Source: Monilinia fructicola
Taxonomy: Eukaryota > Ascomycota > Leotiomycetes > Helotiales > Sclerotiniaceae
Assembly: GCA_008692225.1 (NCBI GenBank)
Contig: VICG01000002.1
Location: 2,339,501-2,403,500, forward strand
DNA: 64,000 bases
Reading direction: 5' to 3'
This document shows, one piece after another, positions 539 through 50,500 of this stretch; positions within the stretch are counted from its first letter, which is position 1, and every line of letters starts with the position of its first letter. Position numbers and translations under genes: made by a program. A model generated the notes under the pieces. The model was not told the origin of the DNA, ran no database searches, and saw only the letters and a list, made by a program, of their open reading frames with translations.

Positions 539-1225
539 ATGGCAACTGAAAAAGATGAAGAATTTCGAGAATCTCAAGATCCTCTGCTCTCGGAGGAGTA
601 CGCTGAGATCAAAGGCGACTTGAGCCCTTCAAAGCGAACCTTTACAACAACACGATACCTACTCATCTTCGGGGTATTGACCATATTATTCTTCACCTCC
701 CTTCTTTCAGTCTTCTCCGCAGCAAGGAGAACGTCAGAAAAAAGTACATCTCGCCCTGAACCACCAGATCATACATTCTGCGGCAGAACCCCTGCAGACG
801 CGGTCAAAAATGGCTGTCGCTTCGAACCCATGCTCAGTTCCTGGGTACCCGAAGCCTGCTACTTCACCGATGAAGGAGACTACGACGTCTTCACCGATCT
901 TCCCTGGTACTCTGATCCCTTTCTCCGCCAGCCTCTAAATGAGACTGAGATGATGAATGTCAGGGCGGGTAATTATGGCCATGTTTACACGACCTGGGCA
1001 TACCATGATGAGCATTGCCTGTATACATGGAGGAAATTGGCCATGGCAATGGAGAAACGATTGCCTCTCATTGACACGAAAACGGCGGATGAGGAACATT
1101 CGCAGCATTGTGCGAGAGTGACGAGGAACTATGTTAGAGAGGATGGGCAAGAAAAGATTGCGGATCTGAAGACATTGGGGCTGAAGGTTACGTTGACTTA
1201 TTTTGGTTGTGTAAACTTGTTCTGA
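539..1225 (+). CDS. UstYa-like (DUF3328-related) HxxHC membrane protein A
   Basis: Single-exon gene for 228 residues. I chose the ATG at 539 because it has a good context (ACAATGG) and gives a short charged cytosolic tail, one membrane segment at about residues 39-60 and a lumenal domain. The lumenal part has a CGRTP...GC element (81-93), W/Y-rich stretches and two HxxHC motifs, HDEHC (156-160) and HSQHC (187-191). Two HxxHC motifs after one membrane anchor are the hallmark of UstYa/DUF3328 proteins, which act as oxidases on ribosomal peptides such as ustiloxin in the secretory pathway. The assignment to that family is inference from the motifs; overall sequence is divergent. It lies about 1 kb from a Kex2-repeat peptide precursor and is paralogous to the gene at 3696, so a role in maturing that peptide is likely. 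Confidence 0.72.
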   Translation: MATEKDEEFRESQDPLLSEEYAEIKGDLSPSKRTFTTTRYLLIFGVLTILFFTSLLSVFSAARRTSEKSTSRPEPPDHTFCGRTPADAVKNGCRFEPMLSSWVPEACYFTDEGDYDVFTDLPWYSDPFLRQPLNETEMMNVRAGNYGHVYTTWAYHDEHCLYTWRKLAMAMEKRLPLIDTKTADEEHSQHCARVTRNYVREDGQEKIADLKTLGLKVTLTYFGCVNLF

Positions 1226-2208: not shown

Positions 2209-2694
2209 CTAGGACGCGGACTCCTCAACTTCCTCACCCTTGACACGAACAATCTGTTTCGCAATCATGCTCAGCAAAAACCCAATTCACTCCGGAAAAT
2301 CCATTCGAGAGATAGTACTTACGACGATGGTCTTTTCCTCTTCGAAAGCACCCTCAGTAGATGCAACGGAAGCCTCATCTCTCTTTTTGGATGCAGCCTC
2401 TTCAACTTCGTCACCCTTGACACGGACAATCTATTTGCGCATGCGATTAGCGAGCTATGCCTCAAGTTGGTATACCCAGGCCCCTTGGAAGAATTCACTT
2501 ACAACAATGGTCTTCTCCTCTTCAAAAGCCCCCTCAGTAGAAGCGGCAGAAGCCTCATCTCTTTTCTTCGACGCAGCCTCCTCAACTTCATCGCCCTTCA
2601 CACGAACAATCTACACACGGCTACCATTAGCAAATTCATAGATTCACAAAGATACCGCTGTCTCAAAAACCAAAGAGCAGGTATGCTACTCACC
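2209..2694 (-). repeat. tandem exon-intron cassettes of the precursor gene
   Basis: Exons 2 (2610-2503) and 3 (2430-2323) are full 108-nt cassettes. Exon 4 (2253-2209) repeats the first part of the cassette, and the end of exon 1 repeats the last part. Each intron interrupts the same point, between the two Val-Ile codons of the core. Exons 2 and 3 differ at 16 codons synonymously and at one codon by replacement, while the introns between them share almost nothing beyond splice sites. All cassettes are symmetric phase 0, so skipping or duplicating one keeps the frame. Confidence 0.85.
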
Positions 2695-2822
2695 ACAATG
2701 GTCTTCTCCTCTTCAAAAGCACCTTCGGTCGACGCAACAGCTGCATCCTCTCTCTTGACAGGTGCGGCAATAGCCATACCGAAGATGGCAGCGAGGAATA
2801 GGGTTGCGACTGAGAACTTCAT
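2209..2822 (-). CDS. secreted Kex2-repeat peptide precursor (RiPP/KEP type)
   Basis: Four exons on the minus strand: 2822-2694, 2610-2503, 2430-2323 and 2253-2209, joined by introns of 83, 72 and 69 nt, all phase 0 with GTGAGT/GTAAGT donors and TAG/CAG acceptors. The product is 129 residues. Residues 1-19 or 1-20 form a signal peptide. Then come repeats with the consensus DEASxASTEGAFEEEK followed by TIVIVRVKG and DEVEEAAS, separated by KR or KKR, the cleavage sites of the Golgi protease Kex2. Exons 2 and 3 are both exactly 108 nt and encode 36-residue cassettes differing by one residue (Ala/Val). Signal peptide plus KR-separated repeats is the architecture of dikaritin precursors (UstA, PhomA) and of Kex2-processed repeat proteins. 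Flanking UstYa-like genes and an MFS transporter support a RiPP cluster. The mature peptide and its modification are unknown; the repeat has no Tyr or Trp. Confidence 0.85.
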
Positions 2823-3695: not shown

Positions 3696-4431
3696 ATGGA
3701 TCTCGATGGCGATACACACTACAAAGACATCGACTCCCAAAGCAGCAGCGACAGCTTAGAATTCCAGCCCATCAAACGACGCAAGTCTTTAATCCCCTCC
3801 CTCCTCCTCGGGTGCATAGCAAGCTTCACACTCGCTGCCTTCCTCATCACAGTAGTACGCTGGCCATGGTCCAAAAGCGATTCCGGTTACTATGCCTATA
3901 CCGACTGCGGGAAAACACCCGACGAAGCTCGATCCAGAGGATGTAGCTACTATCCCATGGGTCGCTACTGGGCACCTCCCGAATGTTCATTCCCAGAGGG
4001 CGATGATAACTACCATCCCTTCCGAGACAGGGAATGGTTCGTTGATACCAATTTGACGATTCCGGCCGATATATCACGGTTGGAATCTGGGGATGCTCGA
4101 CGCGCCTTTACGCATTATTGGCATGATGAGCATTGCACGTTTGTATTGCAGAAATTGGCACTGGCTGTTGCGTTGAAAAAAACGATGGTTCCGGGATTGG
4201 TGGGTAGTATTCATCATGTTAATCATTGTTCGATGACGATTACGAAGACGATTAAGAACGCTTATAATGAGACGTTCTTGGAGAATGATATGTCGATAAC
4301 GGAGAGTACGTTGGGATTTATGCCCTGTGTACCACTTAAGTAAGTCCGCTCTTCCCCTTTGCCTGTGAGAGATTTACTGTACTAACAGCATTGATAGAAG
4401 CCTTATGGACAACCCAGGATACGAAAATTAG
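3696..4431 (+). CDS. UstYa-like (DUF3328-related) HxxHC membrane protein B
   Basis: Paralogue of the protein at 539. The ATG at 3696 (ATCATGG) starts a short acidic/basic cytosolic tail, one membrane segment at about residues 32-54, then CGKTP...RGC (71-83), an aromatic-rich stretch and two HxxHC motifs, HDEHC (143-147) and HVNHC (174-178). Reading straight on stops at 4341-4343 after 215 residues. A better model uses a GTAAGT donor at 4340, an ACTAAC branch site and an AG acceptor ending at 4397, adding ten residues and ending at 4431 (about 225 residues). Two HxxHC motifs imply the same kind of oxidase or peptide-modifying role as UstYa-type proteins. Two such proteins are common in dikaritin clusters, where they may act as a pair. 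Function is inferred; the membrane topology and motifs are directly visible. Confidence 0.72.
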
Positions 4432-5403: not shown

Positions 5404-6884
5404 ATGATTTCCTCAGAGGATCTCGAAAAGAGCACCAACTCATCACCTCAAATCTACCCTCCCAGCTCCACCATCTATCTCCTCCTCCCCTACATATGGT
5501 GGCAGCTCGACGATTTCTGTAAGTCTTGCTCCCCCCTCCCACAGACGAAGACCCGACAAACTAACGAAAGAAAGTCATAGGACAAGCCCGCACCGCCGGC
5601 CTAGCAACGAACTTCCAACTCGCACAAATCGACTCCGAAGAACTCTACACCGATACAAAGTTCGTACTCTTCGCCTTCGCATGGACACTACTGCTATGGC
5701 AAATATCCAATATCAATATCCGCAAGCTGGCTCTGCTTATCACGACTCTGCAGACGTTCCTAGTATTCGCGCAAGTTGCTGCTCCCTCTATTGAAATACT
5801 GCTAGTTGTGCGATCTCTGCTTGGGATTGGTGGTGCCATCTTTCCTGGGGCACTTTTGCTGGCTATTTCGAAACTTCCTAGGAGGAAATTGGCGACGACT
5901 ATTGCGATTTTTGTCGCCGTGTCTCCTGCGGAGATTGTGGTGGCTGGGCCACTTCTCTCTGTTTTAGTTAGTTTTATGAAGGATCTGTCGATTCTTAGTT
6001 GGCAGACTATCTTCGCAATTGATGGAATAATCGGTTTGGCCGTCATATTCACGTTATGGGTGAAGCTACCACTTGCCGTATCTACTCCACCCTCGACAAA
6101 GTTTTCATGCCCCATTGACTCGACAAGCTGGAAACGGAAATTCCTGAACTTTTTCGATCCGAAAAGCTTTATATTTGTAATCATGTTCATCTGTTGCAAT
6201 TTAGCAACTGCGGCAGCACCCTGTTACTTAGCCGCACACCATCGCATATCTTTCGTTTCCATGCCTTACTTTTTCTTCACGGTGGTTTCCGATCTGGCCC
6301 CATCATCGCACTTAATCTTCAATCTCCTCACCATTTTTCCATACCTCATTTCGATCACTACAACATTCATCGTGGCGAGAATTTCCGATAAAAGGCAAAT
6401 TCGGGGCTATTTTGTTGCTACTTGTGGACTTGTCTCCGCTGCCGGCTTTGCTACCATGTCCTTAATTGCCATGTACAACTGGAATCTCTGGTTCTCGTTT
6501 TTTGCCATTTTCCCCGCTTGTATAGGATCATGTGGTGCGATGACGACCATTCTTTCTTGGGCTTTGAGCAGTGAACGATCGGGTTTTAGACAAGGGCTTC
6601 TGTTGTCAATACTTCTGGGTGCGGCACAACTAGCTGTTATATTTTCTCCTGCTGGGGTAAAACCATGGTGGAGAGCCGAGGACGAGCCTGCGCATCCAAG
6701 AGGCTTGGGGGCGAGCGCAGCATTAATGGGTCTGTGTGCCCTATTAGCGCTAGTTTTGAGGGCATACCTGATGTGGAAGAATTCAGATAGCAGGAGAGAG
6801 GATCATCTCTATGTGCCCGTTGAAGCTGAAGATGCACTTGATGATATGATAGAGGAAAAGATTGTAGACAGATATGTTGTTTAG
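5404..6884 (+). CDS. MFS transporter, probable cluster exporter
   Basis: Two exons: 5404-5518 and 5575-6884, with a 56-nt intron (GTAAGT donor; the acceptor AAAG ending at 5574 keeps the frame, whereas the next AG would create a stop). The protein is about 474 residues with roughly a dozen hydrophobic segments, matching a 12-helix major facilitator. The join recreates a first helix ending WWQLDDFF followed by the IGQAR loop, typical of the family. An RSLLGIGGA segment, a basic cytosolic loop (PRRKLA) and a second-half basic loop (SDKRQIRG) fit MFS topology. Substrate cannot be read from sequence. Its position on the same strand directly after UstYa-like gene B suggests export of the processed peptide, but nutrient uptake (allantoate-permease-like) is possible. 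Confidence 0.75.
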
Positions 6885-8748: not shown

Positions 8749-10699
8749 CGTTTCTTAGACTTGATTCCCTGTATTATAGAATCACGAGTGGTAAAGGCAT
8801 CGACTCGCACCGCAAGAAGATGAAATGGAATGAAATATGAGGAGTTTGGAAATATGATGTCGTTGGTTTTTTGGCGGGATGTGATTGATATATACGATGG
8901 GAGTCTTATCCTTATCAATCAATAAATAGCCGGTACGTGCTAGGTAGGTGGTGGTACTGGACTCATCCATGGATACAGCCAGCCATTCTGGGTGTTACCG
9001 TAAGGTTACTAGGCTGAAACTAACAGTTGGACTGTCAGAAAGAGAAACAAAGGATACGAAGATACCGTGTATACGTGAAGGAGATGTTGCAGGAAGGAAG
9101 GCTCACCAGCTGAATGAATCAATCAAGGAAGCAATCCATCAATGATGGCTGTGTGAGAAAAGGTACAGATTTCTTTCCATTAGTTGGCACCACTTCTACC
9201 CAATCATCATTAGAATCGCGTACTCTCAGAAATGCTGATATGTAAATGAATGTAAACATCTAGTAGGTACCTAGTATGTAGAGTAGATATCTATCTTTAC
9301 ATCATCCATCGTATGCATGGGAATGGTATCAATGTCTAAGGTTATGTCGTCAAGTTCCAAAGCTATCACGTGCTCCTGAGTGAGCGTTAGAACTACCTAC
9401 CTAGGTAGGTATGGTATGTAAAGTGATCTGGTGCTCCTAAGTTTAACATGACTAAGCAACTACACGCAAACTCTGTCCAACTCACCTAACCTTACCATCT
9501 CTAGACGCGGTGCCCCTATTAACTGATGCAACCAATACAAACAGATTATTTATCCAATGAGGCTTGTTTCAGGGTAATCTGTCTTTATTGCAAGTATATC
9601 TTCAGTCTATTCAAATCCGTCAAACTGTTCCTTTTCTTCTTATTCTGTGAATACCCCCCCAGCTGTGCCTAAAAGCAACTGTCCAACCCCGATAACCTCC
9701 AAGTTATCTCGAGCTTCTGAGCTACTCGAATCCAGCCATCATCTCTTAAATAGTAGACATTGGACCACATCTCATCCCATCGGCAATTGCCTATCACCCA
9801 GCTCTTTCACTACTATCTCGCCCGTCGGATATAAACACCAGCATGTACGAGCAATGCCGCAAACACTCAGCTAGGATCTGATCATCGGGCGTCAAGGGAT
9901 CCGTTATTCACACTGAAGTCATGTCGGTAATCTGCATGGACAGCAAAAGTTCTATACCTGAGAGTGCTATGTTGCCAAGGGAGCTGATCTTATGACATGT
10001 GATATTCGTGGCAATCTAGTCGTTCAGGTGAACAGACTGTGACGCAAGAGCCTATCTGTTGGACGAAAACCCAAAATTGTCCTTCTGGCACTAAAGCCAT
10101 GCTTGGTTCACTAATATATATGTCAGTATCTACATAAACTGTTAGAAGTACCTTACCTTTGCTTACCGACAGCAGCACTCTATCGTCAAGATCGAATATC
10201 ACCGAAACATGTCACTCACAGAATCATGAAAAGATCAAAAGTAAAAATTCCTTTTAGACTGTTGAGGTTATTCTCATTAAGGTGCTGCAATCGCAGTAAC
10301 CCCAAGGGTACTCTCAAACTATAATCATACAGTGCCTTATGACTGCAAAAAAGGACTAAATACTTTAACGACACACCAAAGAAACCAAATAGCAAATACT
10401 CCAGTATGCACGAAGTCAGGAAAACCGTCCGACTTCTGTAGTAACAGCAAAACTTCTTGGGACCTGCAGACCTCTTGATCTTTGCCAGGATTACACCATT
10501 TTTGCTCATACCAAGTCCATATCCATCCAAAGAACGCCAACCCGCAAAGCTTTGTCCTTTTGCCAAGTGGTATCTACACCCCCATAACTCCGTCCATCTC
10601 CATGCCACAAGCCACCAGCCGGTGCAAGTAAGCCTTAAAAGAAGTCCAGCCCGAAAGCCTTCATTCTTAAGAAGTCCAAACTTCTAAACCTCCATAAAG
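8749..10699. other. gene-poor spacer
   Basis: No convincing gene. A CTACCTAGGTAG-type palindromic run lies at about 9396-9413. Short open stretches at 9990-10202 and 10216-10608 (minus) have no recognisable domain or signal and were not called. Confidence 0.45.
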
Positions 10700-12530
10700 T
10701 TGTGTTTCAAGCAAGACAGCGTAGTACGCGAGAATAAGCTCCTTGCCAAGGGAGTGAGTACCTCTTTGCGACTTTTGCTTCCGCTATCATTAACGTTTGT
10801 AAGAGAAAGTGTATGAGAAGTCTCCGTGCCAAGGGAGAGCATCTACGTTTCACATTTCCTTAGAACTGTGATGAAGCAAGACCGCGCAGTACGTGAGGAT
10901 AAGCTCCTTGCCAGGGGAGTAAGTACCTCTTTGCGACTTCGCGTCCGCCATCGTTAAATTCGAGAGAAAGTGTATGAGAATGCGATCCTGGCCAAGGGAA
11001 AGCACCCGCGTTTCACATTTCTGCTTCGATAAATTGTGTTTCCAGCTAGATAGCACAGAACGCGAGAATACCCTCCTTTCCAAGGGAGTGAATATCTCTT
11101 TGCGATCTTACTTCTGCTTTTGTTATCACGCGTAAGAGAAAGTGTATGAGAATACAATCCTTGCCAAGGGAAAGCATCCGCGTTTCACATTTCATCTTCG
11201 ATAAAATTGTGTTTCCAGCTAGACAGCGCAGAACGCGAGAATACCCTCCTTGCCAGGGGAGTGAGTACCTCTTTGCGACTTTACTTCCGCTTTTGTTATC
11301 ACATGTGAGAGAAAGTGTATGAGAATGCGATCCTTGCCAAGGGAAAGCACCCGCCTTTCACATTTCATCCTCGATAGAATTGTGTTTCCAGCTAGATAGC
11401 ACAGTACGCGAGAATACCATCCTTGCCAAAGGAATAGGTACCTCTTTGCGAGACTTTACTTCCGCTTTTGTTATCACACGTAAGAGAAAGTGTATGAGAA
11501 TGCAATCCTTGCCAAGGGAAAGCACCCGCGTTTCACGTTTCATCTTCGTTAAGTTATGTTCGTAGCCAGAGAGCGTAGGTGCATGAGGGTAGTTCCGTGC
11601 CTAAGGGAGGCCCTGCCTGCAATCTAGCTTCTGCTAACGTTAAAAAGTGGAGTAAGAGAAAGTGTATGAGAATGCAACCCTTGCCAAGGGAAAGCACCCG
11701 CCTTTCACATTTCGTCTTCTTTCCATAAAGTGAATCCAGTAGGATAGCATAGTGCGCGAGGGTATCTCCTTGCCTAAGGGAGGCCCTGCTTTCAAGCTAG
11801 CTTCCGCCTTCATCGGTATTGTCAACGGGAGAAACTGGTGTATGGAAATGTCCTTGCCTAAGGGAGCATCTACGTTTCACTATTCTTGTACCGTGATAAG
11901 TGGTCTTAACAACAGTAAAGACTAGTGTATGGAAATGTCCTTGCCTAAGGGATCATTTACGTTTCACCATTCTTGTACCGTGATAAGTGAGTGGTCTTAA
12001 CAATAGTAGAGACTGGTGTATGGAAATGTCCTTGCCTAAGGGATCATTTACGTTTCACCATTCTTATACCATGATAAGTGGTCTTAATAACAGTAGAGAT
12101 TGATGTATGGAGATGTCCTTGCCTACGGGAGCATCTACGTTTCACCATTCTTGCACTGTGATAAGTGTTCTTGGTAGCGGAAGAAACTGGTGTATGGAAA
12201 TGTCCTTGCCTAAGGGAGCATCTACGTTTCACCTTTCTGGTACCGTAATAAGTTTTCGATTTCGAAGAAGAGGGTTGGAAAGCAGTCCCCTGCTAAGGGG
12301 GACGAGTATTTCCGCGCGGCTTACATTCGCACCGAAGTATTTGTGAGGTGGTATGTGCATCGATTTCGAATAAGTGGGTTGGAAAGCAGTCCCATGCTCA
12401 GGGGGGGTGGTGAACATTTCCTCCCAGCTTACATTCGTACCGAAGTTGTTATTGGGTGACAAATATAAGTATTTCGTAGAAGGGTGTGCAGGAATGCAAT
12501 ACCTTGCTCAAGGGTATCCGCCTCCGGTTG
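10700..12530. repeat. degenerate ~87-bp tandem array with CCTTGCC(T)AAGGG core
   Basis: About 21 units are spaced 82-110 bp apart, most at 83-91 bp. Each carries a core near CCTTGCCAAGGG or CCTTGCCTAAGGG (for example at 10741, 10909, 11160, 11332, 11508, 11679, 11768, 11852, 11939, 12030, 12117 and 12205). Early units alternate between two types, one followed by GAGTGAGTACCTC and one by AAAGCACCCGCGTTTCAC, giving a higher-order period near 172 bp. Units from 11830 onward are more alike. The core is an interrupted inverted repeat (CCTTG-C-CAAGG). On the minus strand two neighbouring units read as 29-codon repeats, but stop codons interrupt most of the array, so it is probably not coding now. 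Confidence 0.8.
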
Positions 12531-12689: not shown

Positions 12690-13530
12690 CATCAAGGCAT
12701 TCAAAGTCTGTGCTATCAATGTACATTGTAGGATATTGTACTGAGGGGCTAGTAAGCGGCGTTCCAGATGTTCAGATGGTTGGAGAACATCAGAATGCAG
12801 GGTACTGAAAGAATGGGAAGCAGCACTCGCAATATTCGAGCGACCGCAGGACATTGAGTTTGGTAGTATCAGAAAGCTTGAGATTGATACCTTCAATATC
12901 CATGTTAGACAGGGGCATTGGATTGAACTGGTCTTCAAGGTTAGGAAAGACCGTCCAGAACAATCAGGTTAAGAGTGTAAATTGGCGTCAGCGACACAAA
13001 AATGGTTGATAGTAGTGTCGTCAATGTCCAGGTTAGTGGAGGACATTGATGTGGCTTATAATTGAAGCCTGGCGAAGCGGAGACCATTTGAAATGATCGG
13101 TTGTAGTGTGTGTATATTGGAGTATTGTCTTAGACAAAGTTTGAAAGGATTGTTGTCAATATCTACAGTAGAAAGATATCGACGTGGCTTTTAGTTGAAG
13201 CTTGGCAAAGACCATTTGAAATGATCAATTGTAGACTTGTAGTATACAGTAAGGTATTGTATTAGAAAAAGTCCATGGGGGTTGTTGTCAACATCTAGAA
13301 TAGAGAAGGATATTGACGTGGCTTTTAGTTGAAGCCTGGCGAAGACCATTTGAAATGATCAGTTGTAGTATACATTGAGGTATTGTATCAGACAACGTTC
13401 GAAGGGGGTTGTTAATATCTAAAGTAGAGAAAAACATTGATGTGGCTTTTAGTTGAAGCCTGGCAAAGACCATGTGAAATGATCAGTTGTGTTATACATT
13501 GGGGTACTGTATAAGAAAAGCGTTGAGGGA
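12690..13530. repeat. degenerate ~128-bp tandem array
   Basis: At least four clear units share GTGGCTTTTAGTTGAAGCCT followed by GGCAAAGACCATTTGAAATG, at about 13050, 13175, 13318 and 13440; the GACCATTTGAAATG blocks are spaced 128, 134 and 124 bp. More diverged relatives extend left to about 12690 and slightly right. Unit lengths are not multiples of three and all frames have stops, so the array looks non-coding. It differs in sequence from the adjoining 87-bp array. Confidence 0.7.
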
Positions 13531-15517: not shown

Positions 15518-17995
15518 TTAACCACCGCGAGCGAAAAAATTCACAAGACGGTGGCGCAAGATATCCTCAAAGCGCTTCCAGTATTCCAATGCATTGGTAA
15601 CTATCATATGACTAAGTCGCGGCATCTTAAAAGAATAAAATACCTGCGGCAAGTAGTCATGCTTAGGAACGGCAGCAACCTCTGTAGAAGCAGGAACTTC
15701 TACGAAGGAAGCTGTCGTGTATTGGTAAGCTTCGACATAGTTAGAGGGAACAAACACCGGGGTGTCTGTTGTAGGAGTGCTGACAGCTGACAAAACTCGA
15801 GGTGGTGGTGCATCGATCAAAGCAACTTGATACGAAGCAGGTGGACCATCAAGAATTGTCAGAGGCCCGACTAACAACCACATCAAAATGAAAAAAGAAA
15901 TGAAGTTCGACCACGATACGAAAGAGAAACGAGATGACCGAGTGGTTGTGGGAACCACAATCGCCACTGGCATCTTCTCTTCGCTGATGGCAACTTGAAC
16001 AACTGGGGCAGGCACCGCAGTTGTTTGAGTTCCGGTGGTGACATTCATGGCAGTTCTTTCATTTGAAACTGAAACAACTGGGGCAGATCCCCGGGTTGTC
16101 TGAGTTCCAGTGGTGGTTTGTGCGGCGGCGATGGGATTGACACTTGTTGAGGGTTCTGTTTCCTGTGCAAGAATAGAAGACAAGGACAACTCTTCAGGAC
16201 CCAGGAATGCTTTTCGGGTAGCTTTCTCGAGCGCATCATCGAATGAATCTCGTCGCAATAAGCGGGAGAGAGTCATTCGAGATGTGCTCGAATCAAGCTG
16301 TGACCGATAAGCCCGGGGCTCTGCCTCGATATACCTATCAAGAGCAGACTTGGTAGCCTTGTGAGCAGCCTCCTCTTCAGCAAGCTCAGTTTCCTTCTCC
16401 AACAAGTTCGACTTTGCTTCTGCAAGCTTGCGGTCGGCAACCACAACAGCTTGTTTTGAAGAGTCGATCTCTTCCATCAAGTTGTCAAGGTCGGTTCGGA
16501 GGGCGCTAGCCTCGAGACGAACCTCCCTAGCAGACTCCTTTGTCGTGCGAAGATGTTCTCGGAGTGTAGTGGCTTGGACATTGGCGGCACCAGCAGACTC
16601 TTGGGCTGATCGAAGATCGCTTTGGAGAGAGCTGATTGTGGCGCCAAGGCCACTGACCTCTACCTTAGAAGCGGACAATTCTTCGGTAGCTACACTTCGA
16701 GCATTGACATGAGCTGCTGCTTGAGTTTTGGCATTCTCAGCAACCTCATTCTTCTCTTCGACGGCGGATTGTAGTAGGGCGGAAAGGTGGTGGAGTTCGA
16801 TCCGATGAGAAAGCTGGAGTTCCGAGATCTTCTGTTCATGCTCGGCCACAAGAACAGAGATCTTTCCTTCCATGGCAGCAATCGCCTTCTCATGCTGCTG
16901 TTGTTGTTCGGGGTCGGCCGGGACAACACTGTTGCCAGTGTTGCTGGCCACCAGAATAGCTGCTGCATCTTGTACAGCGGCATCGAACCTCGACTCGGCG
17001 CCTCGCATCAGCTCAAGGAGCTGCTCGTTCTTGGTAGCGAGTTCAGAGTTCTGGGCACGAAGCCCGGAAACCTGACCCGCTTCCATCTCGAGTTGCTGAA
17101 TGCGAGGTTTGGCTTCGTCAATCTGGTTCTGGAGAGAATCACGCTCGTCCGTAATTCTCTGACCCGCGATCAGCAACAGTCTGATCTTCTCCTCACTCTC
17201 CTCCAATGACTTCAAAGCTTCGCTTCGAGAAGCGAAAGCAGCCTGGTAGCCTTCTTGGGCAGCCTGCAGCTCGAAAGCCTTGGCGTCCAATTCGACTTCG
17301 TCGGCGCTTACTTTGTCTTCGAGGTCATTGACGTTCTCCCTTAACGTCTCAACGGAAGTCCTCAATCGGCGGTTGAGGATTTCCACATTCGACTTTTCGT
17401 TGGCCAATGTGTTCTTCGCGGAGGTGATCTCGGCAATGGTCTCCTCCGCTTTATCATTGTTGTCGTTGGCATCGACAAGAGCGTTATAAAATTTGGTCTT
17501 CTCAGCGACCTGGAAATCTGCTTCGTCCTTGGCAGCCTTCAAATCGGATCTGGCTTTATCCAGATCTGAAGACATGCCGACGAATTTTTTCGCAGCGATG
17601 GCTTGTTCCCGTCGGAGCTGATCGACCTCCTTCTGTAGCTCAACCAACTTGGTTTGCACCCGGGGTGCGTTCTGTTCGGTAGGCGGGGTGGGAAGGGTCG
17701 GGAGGTTGGCTGGACCTCTGAATTGGAAGGTGGTGGCTGACCCACCTCCAAATACTACAATTGATTAGCAAATTGTCAATTTACGTTGAAGAATGGATGA
17801 CATACAGTTCGAACCACTTCCATCCATCGTGGTGTCGGCAGTGGTGGGGGGTTGGCGGGATGACTGCGCCGCTGCTTGTCTTTGATTGAGCTGCTCGCTC
17901 AAAGACAGCAGCGGCTGTGTCTCCTTCTTCTTGGGCGCGAAGAGAGGAGGGGGGGTCTGCGGAGAGTATTTGTCTTGGCTTCTGTTTCCCGACAT
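15518..17995 (-). CDS. coiled-coil protein with a C-terminal membrane segment
   Basis: Exon 1 is 17995-17806 and exon 2 is 17754-15518, with a 51-nt intron (GTATGT donor, GTAG acceptor). The product is about 808 residues. The N-terminus is polar and proline-rich, and the splice join creates a Gly/Phe patch (FGGGSATTFQF). From about residue 95 to 550 there is an almost uninterrupted heptad-rich coiled coil full of Glu, Lys, Ala and Gln. A Ser/Thr/Pro stretch follows, then one strong membrane segment (SFISFFILMWLLVGPLTIL) and about 110 further residues. A long cytosolic rod anchored by one C-terminal helix recalls golgin or nuclear-envelope linker proteins, but no family is recognised and this is only analogy. 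A 71-nt intron in the 5' leader (18003-18073) ends seven bases before the ATG. Confidence 0.75.
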
Positions 17996-39796: not shown

Positions 39797-41070
39797 CTAA
39801 TCGGGTCGGGTGAGAAACGTCAACGCCGCTGCCACCAAGGCCTTCAGTCCCGTTAACATTGTCGGCTGTGTCACCGGCGGAAACCACGGACCGTGGTTCA
39901 TCGGTACATTCACCGTTGATCCATTCCCTCTAGCCTTCATAACAACATCAGGATCGGCCCCGCCAAGAAGCCAAAAGCACGACGGGACTCCTTTCCCACC
40001 CAACTTGTTGGGGACTTCCGCTGCCAAAATGCCAAAATCTTCTGTCCCGCCCCACAGCACGCAATCCCTAGCATGATCTTCTTCGAAAGTCGCATCAAAA
40101 GAAGCTGATATCATGTGCGTGATGGCGGGGTGGTTTACCAAGAGGGGTAGGCTTCTTATCAGTTCGACCAGCGACTCTTTACTGGCATTCCCCTCTAGCT
40201 GGACTTCTTTCACAATCATCTTCATCAAATACATGGTGTTATGTCTTGCCAACGAGTCAAAGTATCTTATGTTCAGCTTCAAAACCGCCTGGTCTGCAAT
40301 GACATCCCCCATATTCCCCGCCATCACTCTATCAACCGTCACGATGGCCGAATCATGCAAGTCTAATCTCTTGCTGGTGATCTCCTGCAATCGTACCATG
40401 ACGCTCGCAGCCATAGCCATGGGATCCGTCGTCACATGCGGCTGTGACGCATGGCCCCCCCTGCCGTAAAGCGTCACCCGGTAAGAATCGAGCCCGGCCC
40501 CGAAGATTCCGTCGCGCGTTCCGATGGTGCCAGCCGCCAATGCCATGACGCGCTGTCCCAGGATCACATCGGGGATGGGACACGCGTGTCTGGCGGGGTC
40601 GCAGAGTCCATCTTCGATCATGCCCCTCGCTCCCGCGCCTTGATTCACGCTCGGTTGGAAGAGCAGCACCAGCGTCCCTTTCCACAGGGTTTGCATTCCC
40701 CGCAGACCCGTCGCGGCAAATAGCACTCTCGTCATCTGTATACACGAAACGTGCACTTCATCCTGCTCCGCACCGCAGCGCAGCAGCCTACCCCCGCGCG
40801 ATCACGCGACCATTCCTGTCCCATGTACATCGCCGCACGGAGGAGCACGGTAGGTCCCCAGGAATTCCTCAGGATGCCAATACAGCCGGCGCCGCCGATG
40901 TCCGAGCGGGCCTCGAATCCCGGAAACTGTGCCAGGTATGTCTTGGCGGCGTTTCGAGCGTCGGCGCCATCCGGGCGCTGGGAGCCTCGTCGGAGATTCT
41001 CGTACATGTCGTCGAGATACTGGACGTTGACGAGTGCCGCGCAGTTGCTCACCAGCGTGGGGATATCCAT
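39797..41070 (-). pseudogene. M20-family amidohydrolase (aminoacylase-like), active site lost
   Basis: Minus strand, ATG at 41070, stop at 39797. The ends match fungal M20D amidohydrolases, which hydrolyse N-acyl or N-carbamoyl amino acids: FEARSDIGGAGCIGILRNS, GPTVLLRA, GTLVLLFQP, RVTLYGRGGHASQPH, WGGTEDFGILA and NHGPWFPPV. The middle is damaged. After LLRA the DMDALP stretch is replaced and the segment is shortened. The frame then changes near 40756, and the metal-binding HACGHD motif is missing (the sequence passes from GAEQD to EVHVSC). The Glu pair after FQP reads SVNQ, and the expected GQH reads GQR. The metal ligands are thus mostly gone while the remaining 319-codon frame is clean. 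I call it an inactive remnant; a repurposed pseudo-enzyme is possible. The DNA is clearly more GC-rich than its surroundings. Confidence 0.7.
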
Positions 41071-47571: not shown

Positions 47572-50500
47572 GTTGGAATTGGGATGTTGTGTAGAATTCG
47601 GGGGTAGGATACAATGGGATGGGATGGGTATATTTCTGACAGATTCTGGATTCAAAATCTCATCATCATCTTACTTCATACACTTTCTTTAAGCGAGGGC
47701 TTTTTTTTTTTCTCAGGACGAGGCGATTCTTCGGTCTTGTGGTATACTTCCAAGCAATCTGATGACAACAAATCTATCAATAGCTTTCAAACAATGATCT
47801 ATCTGGCCATGAAACTTACCGAGCACGGGATATGATACCATCAACGTACAGATTCTGGATATCTCTCCATTATCTCATCAATACTCTTTTCCTCCCCTTG
47901 CTCATAAATCTGACCTCCCCTCGTCCGTCTCATACAAAAAGCCCCCGTCTAGCCATCAACCATCATACCATATCATATTTCATCACATCGTATCATACAA
48001 CAACTCCCCAAATCCATCCATTCGTTGCACATAATGTTCACCATCCATTGCCAGACACCCTCGGGAAAAACATGGCGGGTTTTCCTTCTGCTGGCTTTCT
48101 CCTCTTTGGCTCTTCGATCCCATACGGCCCCATGGATCCCATCAACCATGATCCCCCAACCATCTAGATCCCCTGGAAAAATAAAAGTTTGCCATTGCCA
48201 TTCATTCCCCTCTTTAAGGATTTCCGATCTCACAAAGAGGGTATGCCTCGGCAGACTTTTTCTCTTTCTTTGCCTCTGGCTCTTCCTCTTCTTTTCATGT
48301 TATATCTTAATTCCTGGGAATAACTAATGCTAGAAATACCAAGACCGACCGACTGCGGATGATGAAGGAAGACTCTGTGTATAATATATGTTCTTTGGGT
48401 ATGTATGTATGTATGTATGTATGTATGTATGTATGTATGTATGTATGTATGTATGTATGTATGTATGTATGTATGTATAACAAAATACCCATGCTATATA
48501 TGAAGTTTATATCTGTCGACGATATAGGGGGAGCTTTTGTCGTATATATGTATGATATATCACACAATGTACTATACACAACCAAAATTACAAACACAAC
48601 CTGTAAACGCTCTCGTAGTAGCGAGCATTCGAAGAGACAAACCCGACAATATGAATCCTGCGACATGGCACATTATCAGCGATGCAGAAGCCACCACGGG
48701 GTAGCATAACATGTCCTGCGTATGCGTAGCGAGGGAGCGGTTGAGTTACCCGACCGCATAGCTCTTATAGCGAGGGGTTGGTGTGATGACTAAAATTTCT
48801 TGCTACTTGGTTGGGAGAGATGGAGGGAGGGTTGTAGAATACATGGTTGCTTACTTTTTCGTTCTTGGGGTTGTGTATTATTTGCTGCGTTTGCGAGATG
48901 GTCTCTTCGCTTGCTAGATTTTATGTTTTGCTCCCCTGGCTGGCGGGCAGGCTTGAACCATTGATATCTGAGGATATTTCCGTCGTTCATATACTCGTAT
49001 GAACTTCCAGCTTCCAGCTTCCAGCCTCCGCCCTACACTCTTCAACATCTTTCATCTCCCCTCCCGAATTAAGGGTTGTGCTCGTCTCCAGGGCTATCGT
49101 CTGGCGCTACTCCATCCCTTCAATCTCCACACCAGCACCAATCGCCACCTGTCGCAAGGAAACTAAGAATACAGAGATGAGGGAAATGAAATAAAGTAAA
49201 ACGTGAATTACTTGCTCATACACAAAATACAATACAATACCCCGCAACTTACCTCGTATATCAAGCGAAGCGCATCCCGACGCGTTTCCCAGGCGTTCTC
49301 CCTCCAATTCTTCCCTCACCTTATTTATTGAACAGCAACCTTATATCAACACCATGTACTCCTTTAGCACCAATTAACGAATCCGATGTTCATTTTAAGC
49401 ATCTTAATCCGGGTGGCATTCGGACGCAAAATATAAGTCGTCGAGTGCCACATCACAGTGATGACGGATACCCCCAACCCATATCAAGAAGAGGTCTTTC
49501 TCCCTACCAATAGCTGCGCGAACGACTCTATCACCCTCGGCGAGCCGAGCGCATCCGCGATGATCGCCAGGTCTGGGGCACGAGTGGAGTTCGGGGCAAG
49601 TGTCGATGCAAGTGGTGGTCCTGTAACATTCGTGCCGGTTTACTTTACTTTGGTTTCAATGCACGTTTTGATGGGAGACGTCTTCTGTGCCGTGGTACGC
49701 ATGTTCTGCCGAGTGATGTTGTGAGTGCTGCTGTTCGTATTTGGGTGTTTGTATTGTTCGGGGTGGTTTCTGGTTGAGGGGAATATTTCTTGGTTGATTT
49801 GGAGAACTGCACAAGAAGGGGGATGCAAATGCTGATAGAGAAGAATATTCTCGACCGTGAATAATTTCAATAAATAAGATGTGTCATATATGAGCCAAAA
49901 AAAAGCCTGAAATTCTTAAATTTATAATAGATAGCCTACAATGAGAATATTCAAGGATGGCATGTTAGTGACCCTGGTGAAGATATATTTCCAAAGTCAT
50001 GATTAGCTACAAGAATTAGCTACAGGTGCTGAGACGTTGTTGATCATAGTTCCACCACTAACATATCTAACTTGCATTGAGGTACCACAATCTATCCCGG
50101 TCAGATGTTAACCAACACTCCAAGGGGACATCTAGATATGTCATTACTAATCAAGACGGATATCAAGCCATCCGTGGAAGATATAAAAACAAGCGAGAGA
50201 AGTCGACTGAATTCTATAACTAGACAGAATCTAGAGTAGAAAAAGCCCCAAGAGCTATAGGTATAGGGCATATTGGTTAATGGGGAAAATAGCAATGCAT
50301 CGCTAATTCCAGTCATTCGGGAATAATCCATAAATCTGTTAAATCTTCACCTGTCCATCGATTATTACAAAAGCATGGGTATGACAGTAGTTCAGCCATA
50401 TCGATGACAGGTAGCAACTAGCTAGCATAAAAACGATGTAATCAGTTCATACCCTGCCTATTGTTTTTCAAGATTTGCGGAATGATGTCTGGTAACACGG

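Follow-up and report, generated by a model that had tools for sequence, protein, structure and literature searches.

UstYa/DUF3328 proteins are binuclear-copper enzymes that modify fungal peptides. The described systems that most closely resemble the locus reported here are the dikaritin clusters (ustiloxin, phomopsin, asperipin-2a and victorin), in which the precursor has a signal peptide and Kex2-separated repeats and is adjoined by UstYa-type proteins. In the accessible portions of the published accounts, the dikaritin cores known so far are crosslinked via Tyr or Phe (PMC9233826), and working clusters exist that do without some accessory enzymes, the asperipin-2a cluster having a single ustY gene (PMC12048977). 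The available text of a further study defines UstYa/DUF3328 proteins by a membrane helix followed by HxxHC(x)nHxxHC, and describes an enzyme of the family, CctR, in which a two-copper centre in the HxxHC motif pair is required for aliphatic C-H oxidation (PMC12435403).

Kex2-processed repeat proteins (KEPs) offer a second point of comparison. A survey of these proteins, as far as its accessible text goes, counted 7878 KEPs in 1461 strains, or about 5.4 per strain, and found Tyr in 65.6% of the repeats near DUF3328 genes, with di-histidine or Trp instead of Tyr in some abundant repeat types near such genes (PMC7329392). Epichloecyclin (GigA) also derives from a secreted multi-repeat ascomycete precursor for which Kex2 processing has been proposed. 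However, its products are reported as cyclic nonapeptides with Tyr-Ile crosslinks (PMC9233826, accessible text), whereas the units described below are about 33 residues long and carry no Tyr.

A gene of comparable layout is present in Monilinia fructicola. Within the window (the whole 64,000-nt stretch of DNA that was analysed), four phase-0 exons at 2822-2209 on the minus strand yield a predicted spliced product of 129 amino acids. We believe that this gene is probably the precursor of a fungal RiPP-type cluster, and that its product would be modified by the UstYa-like proteins encoded on its flanks. In the literature covered, which consisted largely of papers outside subscription, we found no account of the precursor, of the locus or of a KEP with one exon per repeat. 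The parts of the gene are as follows.

2694..2822, minus strand: precursor exon 1 (129 nt), encoding a signal-like N-terminus (MKFSVATLFLAAIFGMAIA-A), a KR site and the first half of repeat 1, to TIV.
2611..2693, minus strand: predicted intron 1 (GT-AG, 83 nt), with CTAAT 20 nt before its 3' end.
2503..2610, minus strand: precursor exon 2 (108 nt, exactly 36 codons, phase 0), a single repeat unit.
2431..2502, minus strand: predicted intron 2 (GT-AG, 72 nt), at a repeat position identical to that of intron 1.
2323..2430, minus strand: precursor exon 3 (108 nt, exactly 36 codons), a single repeat unit.
2254..2322, minus strand: predicted intron 3 (GT-AG, 69 nt), at the same repeat position as introns 1 and 2.
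2209..2253, minus strand: precursor exon 4 (45 nt), encoding IVRVKGEEVEESAS and the stop.
2751..2756, minus strand: Kex2-type site KR (residues 23-24), positioned from the translation; putative cleavage.
2560..2568, minus strand: Kex2-type site KKR (residues 58-60), positioned from the translation; putative cleavage.
2380..2388, minus strand: Kex2-type site KKR (residues 94-96), positioned from the translation; putative cleavage.

The initial annotation had proposed a 129-residue product spliced from four exons, and re-reading gave the same length, with GT...AG splice sites in phase. All four exons comprise whole numbers of codons, and the branch-point-like elements of introns 1-3 (CTAAT, CTAAT and CTGAG) lie 20-21 nt upstream of the intron ends. 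The product runs from MKFSVATLFLAAIFGMAIA-APVKR through three repeats that are closed by KKR, KKR and the stop. Its N-terminus is hydrophobic with an A-I-A/A site (judged by eye), and the dibasic sites named earlier, KR at residue 23 and KKR at 58 and 94, are all in place. The near-identical repeats that had been described as carrying EEEK-TIVIVRVKG-DEVEE read EEEKTIVIVRVKG[DE]EVEE in all three copies. The precursor shows the near-identical repeats separated by Kex2 sites (three repeats; KR, KKR and KKR) that the accessible text of the survey gives as KEP features (PMC7329392), together with a signal-like N-terminus judged by eye. Unlike the KEPs described in the literature covered, it has internal exons that each correspond to a single repeat unit, and all of its introns interrupt the best-conserved stretch, with TIV on one side and IVRVKG on the other.

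Comparison of the repeats with one another is informative about their history. A stretch of 20 residues (ASTEGAFEEEKTIVIVRVKG) is invariant across the copies, and 12 of the 20 codons that specify it vary. Over 99 nt the repeat pairs show 19, 19 and 15 nucleotide differences, yet these translate into no more than 4, 5 and 3 residue differences over 33 positions, with third codon positions taking 17 of 19, 17 of 19 and 13 of 15 of the changes. The dN/dS between copies is 0.04-0.06, and equally few residue changes arose in none of 5000 random placements of the same number of changes for each pair. For two of the three intron pairs, similarity does not rise above that of shuffled sequence, and the third marginally exceeds all 200 shuffles (43 identities against a maximum of 42). 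Given the synonymous excess, the low dN/dS and the mostly dissimilar introns, the repeats appear to be old and to have had their likeness maintained by selection on the peptide. The reading that these exons are not a gene at all, and look like one by chance, is scarcely credible, as it is opposed by the synonymous excess and the random trials, by GT-AG sites that are intact and in phase, and by orthologues in two further species.

These orthologues came from a precursor search of about 5.8 billion proteins (E<=0.01), which gave three matches: P0003 from Botrytis elliptica (93 aa, E 7e-39, two repeats, read in the same way), P0004 from B. fragariae (93 aa, two repeats) and one 74-aa unspliced first exon. 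A search of the M. fructicola genome for paralogues recovered only the gene itself, as three matches to its own exons. Both Botrytis proteins retain the core, the Kex2-type sites and the signal-like start, and the layout noted initially, a signal-like N-terminus followed by Kex2-separated repeats, occurs in a two-repeat version in B. elliptica. With two repeats there and three here, it seems that repeats are gained or lost as entire exons. The second repeat of P0004 has EDLGRKR where other copies have EEEKTIV, which is perhaps a fault of the gene model.

The public name of P0003 is 'Inhibitor I9 domain-containing', yet the protein has no Pfam I9 match. One might accordingly ask whether the gene encodes a folded small protein (Inhibitor I9 or ACT-like) whose KKR sites stay uncut. 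Beyond the UniRef name, this reading could draw on Pfam TTHA0829-like_ACT, which scores 26.4 bits on the 129-aa protein (cut-off 27.4; E 7.1e-6), 21.1 bits on P0003 and 18.9 bits on P0004. However, neither the 129-aa protein nor P0003 or P0004 gave an I9 row at E<=10 (a range in which the HMMER filters lose most matches beyond about 0.1), the ACT score sums over the repeats and spans about 30 of 70 model positions, and the AlphaFold2 model of P0003, built from only two sequences, has a mean pLDDT of 39.5. We regard a folded protein as very improbable. The I9 fold, which came from the UniRef name and is absent from the Pfam results, was rejected, and the ACT-like and other weak Pfam matches on the repeats were taken as repeat or composition effects, even though the ACT match is only 1 bit short of its cut-off. 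The P0003 model also has a helix at 3-19 (low confidence).

The genes around the precursor provide the second line of evidence for a RiPP-type cluster.

539..1225, plus strand: UstYa-like protein P0001, 228 aa (HDEHC...HSQHC; PF11807 E 0.0014, 19 bits against a cut-off of 25).
3696..4431, plus strand: UstYa-like protein P0002 (HDEHC...HVNHC), including a short putative last exon, 4398-4431, placed by eye.
L019:5816-6547, 3.5 kb left of the window, minus strand: third UstYa-like gene (HxxHC...HxxHC).
Last recognised frame ending 0.43 kb left of the window: Zn2Cys6 regulator (PF00172, PF11951).
5404..6884, plus strand: MFS transporter and possible cluster exporter (PF07690, 1.1e-15 on 5565-6881; first exon by eye).

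A gene for a HxxHC...HxxHC protein flanks the precursor gene on each side, and both encoded proteins, P0001 and P0002 (27% identity), have a hydrophobic N-terminal stretch as well as the two motifs. The proposal of a candidate fungal RiPP, made initially from the precursor, gains support from this neighbourhood, in which three UstYa-like genes are accompanied by genes for a transporter and a regulator. A Zn-finger regulator and an MFS transporter are likewise described for the ustiloxin B cluster in the accessible text of PMC6941272. In contrast to those dikaritin clusters that have them, this locus has no recognised tyrosinase, methyltransferase or nearby peptidase among the 29 ORFs scanned (part of all ORFs), the only peptidase-family match among them being an M20 ORF at 39800-40801, 33 kb off.

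Several other features of the region can be recorded. An ORF that by its appearance resembles a housekeeping gene starts farther left (L019:950-2731). Within the window, minisatellite-like arrays lie at 10689-12253 and 13040-13490 (periods of about 173/348, 87/178 and 124 nt), and a perfect (GTAT)20 microsatellite (100% matches) lies at 48399-48478. A 748-aa open frame at 15518-17764 on the minus strand has only sub-threshold coiled-coil-type Pfam matches, and an Rfam search of the window at gathering scores returned 0 matches.

The three local UstYa-like proteins belong to a clade that lies at the edge of what Pfam detects. Their Pfam UstYa scores are 19 bits, 14 bits and none, P0002 having no match of its own, so that not one of them reaches the curated PF11807 cut-off of 25. 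A genome-wide PF11807 search gave 30 matches, none of them at the precursor locus or at a second locus, C1:3165771-3174018. When P0001, P0002 and P0021 were used as queries over the 44 Mb of the genome, with only the best candidates scored, at least six clear clade members were found, three at each of these two loci; a weak extra match of P0002 (C11:143517, E 0.135) was set aside. All six have both HxxHC motifs, as read in unspliced frames (two of the C1 genes have introns).

A profile of four clade members reached 25 proteins, none with a precomputed Pfam domain; the 11 with organism names come from Botrytis, Monilinia, Clarireedia, Hymenoscyphus or Lachnellula. Both HxxHC motifs are present in 21 of the 25, and the exceptions are all short models of 143-163 aa (both motifs are absent from P0026 and P0029, and one from P0027 and P0028). 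The public models of P0026 (B. cinerea), which lacks the HxxHC part, and of P0019 (M. laxa), which has a divergent tail, look faulty. P0001 is matched by an M. laxa protein at 100% identity with 56% coverage, and another M. laxa protein, P0008, differs from its M. fructicola counterpart.

An alignment of 17 sequences combined four members from this genome with 13 of the 25 matches. The other 12 matches, which were near-duplicates, short or simply unselected, were left out, as were two genes of this genome whose frames are broken by introns. In the alignment, both HxxHC motifs and C81, C93, C107 and C224 are invariant. PF11807 is the only Pfam family that this set matches, with 10 of the 17 sequences at E<=0.1 (best 6.8e-5), and a comparison of shallow profiles aligned both motifs with those of three ordinary M. 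fructicola UstYa proteins (probability 66.7%, E 5.3e-5). The motif, the sub-threshold Pfam matches and this profile match suggest that the local HxxHC proteins are divergent UstYa/DUF3328 relatives.

The predicted structure is consistent with this assignment. An AlphaFold2 model of P0001 as a monomer without metal (mean pLDDT 77.2, pTM 0.60) has a disordered N-terminus, a long N-terminal helix at 34-68, and the HxxHC motifs on two helices at 154-172 and 185-193. We read the 34-68 helix by eye as a predicted membrane helix, which would give P0001 the UstYa/DUF3328 layout in this single model. The disordered N-terminus, single N-terminal helix and paired HxxHC on two helices are also features of CctR in the accessible account (PMC12435403), although CctR acts on a non-ribosomal peptide, and copper binding and activity of P0001 are putative. 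PDB sequence searches gave best E values of 0.39, 0.51 and none, and a fold search of the P0001 model against the PDB gave 50 matches at E<=10, with a best E of 1.3 and none at E<=0.001.

The peptide itself also departs from the dikaritins. The repeat contains no Tyr or Trp, TIVIVRVKG contains no Phe, and the sole Phe sits outside this stretch, in GAFEEE. It is present in six of the seven repeat copies over three species, and is replaced by Leu in B. fragariae repeat 1. A true dikaritin, with a UstYa-type crosslink via this Phe, could be argued from its near-constancy and from the precedent of victorin, which is cyclised via Phe according to the accessible text of PMC9233826. However, the Leu of B. 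fragariae, the scores of the enzymes under the UstYa cut-off and the aromatic-free KVKV core of the C1 locus make this reading improbable. The local UstYa-like clade is divergent from dikaritin enzymes and has extra conserved Cys. As the enzymes fall under the UstYa Pfam cut-off and the repeat lacks Tyr and, in TIVIVRVKG, Phe, we withhold the dikaritin label and class the locus as a RiPP-type cluster that resembles the dikaritins in layout but has enzymes from a divergent clade. Given that di-histidine and Trp repeat types exist, the absence of Tyr is unusual but not unprecedented.

The second locus of the clade also has a repeat gene. About 2 kb from the three UstYa-like genes at C1:3165771-3174018 lies a gene with one intron (C1:3175939-3176927; L022:5939-6927) for a 312-aa product that has a signal-like start and in which KVKV recurs 25 times, within units like DNDPTKVKVAR. 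There is no dibasic site anywhere in this product, and Kex2 cutting there is therefore doubtful. A relative from Clarireedia jacksonii (P0031, ACMFMG_012077), matched at E 1.9e-4 when the query was shortened, carries EPTKVKV units and five KR sites. Its locus tag is near that of a clade UstYa-like protein, ACMFMG_012069, both entries give a longest contig of 150,680, and the two genes likely lie on one contig. Also at the C1 locus are a Zn2Cys6 regulator (L022:9668-9997) and a frame that looks acetyltransferase-like by eye (L021:7142-7971).

Ordinary UstYa loci, of which the genome has about 18, were also examined for repeat precursors. Single frames were scanned for repeated words in 15 ten-kb stretches round eight loci and in eight pieces of 3.2-3.6 kb round others, a procedure that may miss intron-rich genes. 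The scan was positive for the C1 repeat gene and for a window row extending to 2236, inside the precursor gene. Rows L030, L033, L037 and L043 were also flagged, none of them with a signal peptide and Kex2 repeats as judged by eye (L033 and L037 from frames in full).

A rival reading is that the precursor is simply a KEP, giving rise to unmodified secreted signal, surface or amyloid-like peptides while the UstYa-like genes serve another pathway. In the accessible text of PMC7329392, a DUF3328 neighbour is recorded for 1758 of 7878 KEPs, so that the majority lack one. The middle of the repeat alternates V and I between acidic flanks, with short strands predicted by AlphaFold2 at very low confidence, and the absence of a Tyr or Trp that could form a classical crosslink would fit as well. 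Against this, the enzyme clade stands on both flanks of the precursor, and the searches (which give lower bounds) located it at just two loci of the genome, each with a repeat gene. From the published KEP counts, and assuming random placement, we roughly estimate the chance of a KEP in a random 20-kb locus at about 0.25%, so a two-of-two pairing by chance is unlikely. An unmodified KEP is thus a reading that we consider unlikely, though it deserves more weight than a true dikaritin.

In the RiPP-type cluster that we favour, the precursor gene would be transcribed and the signal peptide would carry the product into the secretory pathway. A Kex2-type protease might then cut after KR/KKR to release three peptides of 33 residues each, or shorter trimmed forms centred on TIVIVRVKG. 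Without modification, Kex2 cutting and removal of the basic residues would give peptides with predicted monoisotopic masses of 3477.70, 3465.66 and 3523.71 Da. The three UstYa-like proteins would sit in a Golgi/endosome-type membrane with the HxxHC-HxxHC domain luminal. With two bound coppers they would oxidise unactivated C-H bonds in the side chains of the repeat, by hydroxylation or by a crosslink between aliphatic, Lys or Arg side chains. The two-copper oxidation of aliphatic C-H by CctR offers a possible mechanism that needs no tyrosine. The MFS protein may export the product, and the Zn2Cys6 protein may regulate the cluster.

The repeat cores of both loci are basic and beta-branched, with no aromatic residue in the core stretch. 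It is conceivable, at somewhat less than an even chance, that such clusters form a separate RiPP class. In it, copper UstYa-like proteins from a divergent clade that Pfam does not see would work on cores in which V, K and R alternate and aromatics are absent (here TIVIVRVKG; [DE]P[TS]KVKV at C1 and in Clarireedia) by aliphatic/basic crosslinking or oxidation, with exon-wise change of copy number in the first precursor.

Two surveys, in their accessible portions, recognise a fungal RiPP precursor as a repeat protein with a DUF3328 gene in its vicinity (PMC7329392, PMC9632046), and a Monilinia genome study lists 18 clusters with no RiPP among them in its accessible text (PMC8959702). Given that the clade falls under the Pfam cut-off, with a precomputed Pfam domain in none of 25 members, such clusters probably escape ordinary database searches or are counted as unmodified KEPs. 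The setting is one of fungi related to the agents of stone-fruit rot and grey mould. If it is true that these enzymes act on aromatic-free cores, the known range of UstYa-type copper chemistry would be extended.
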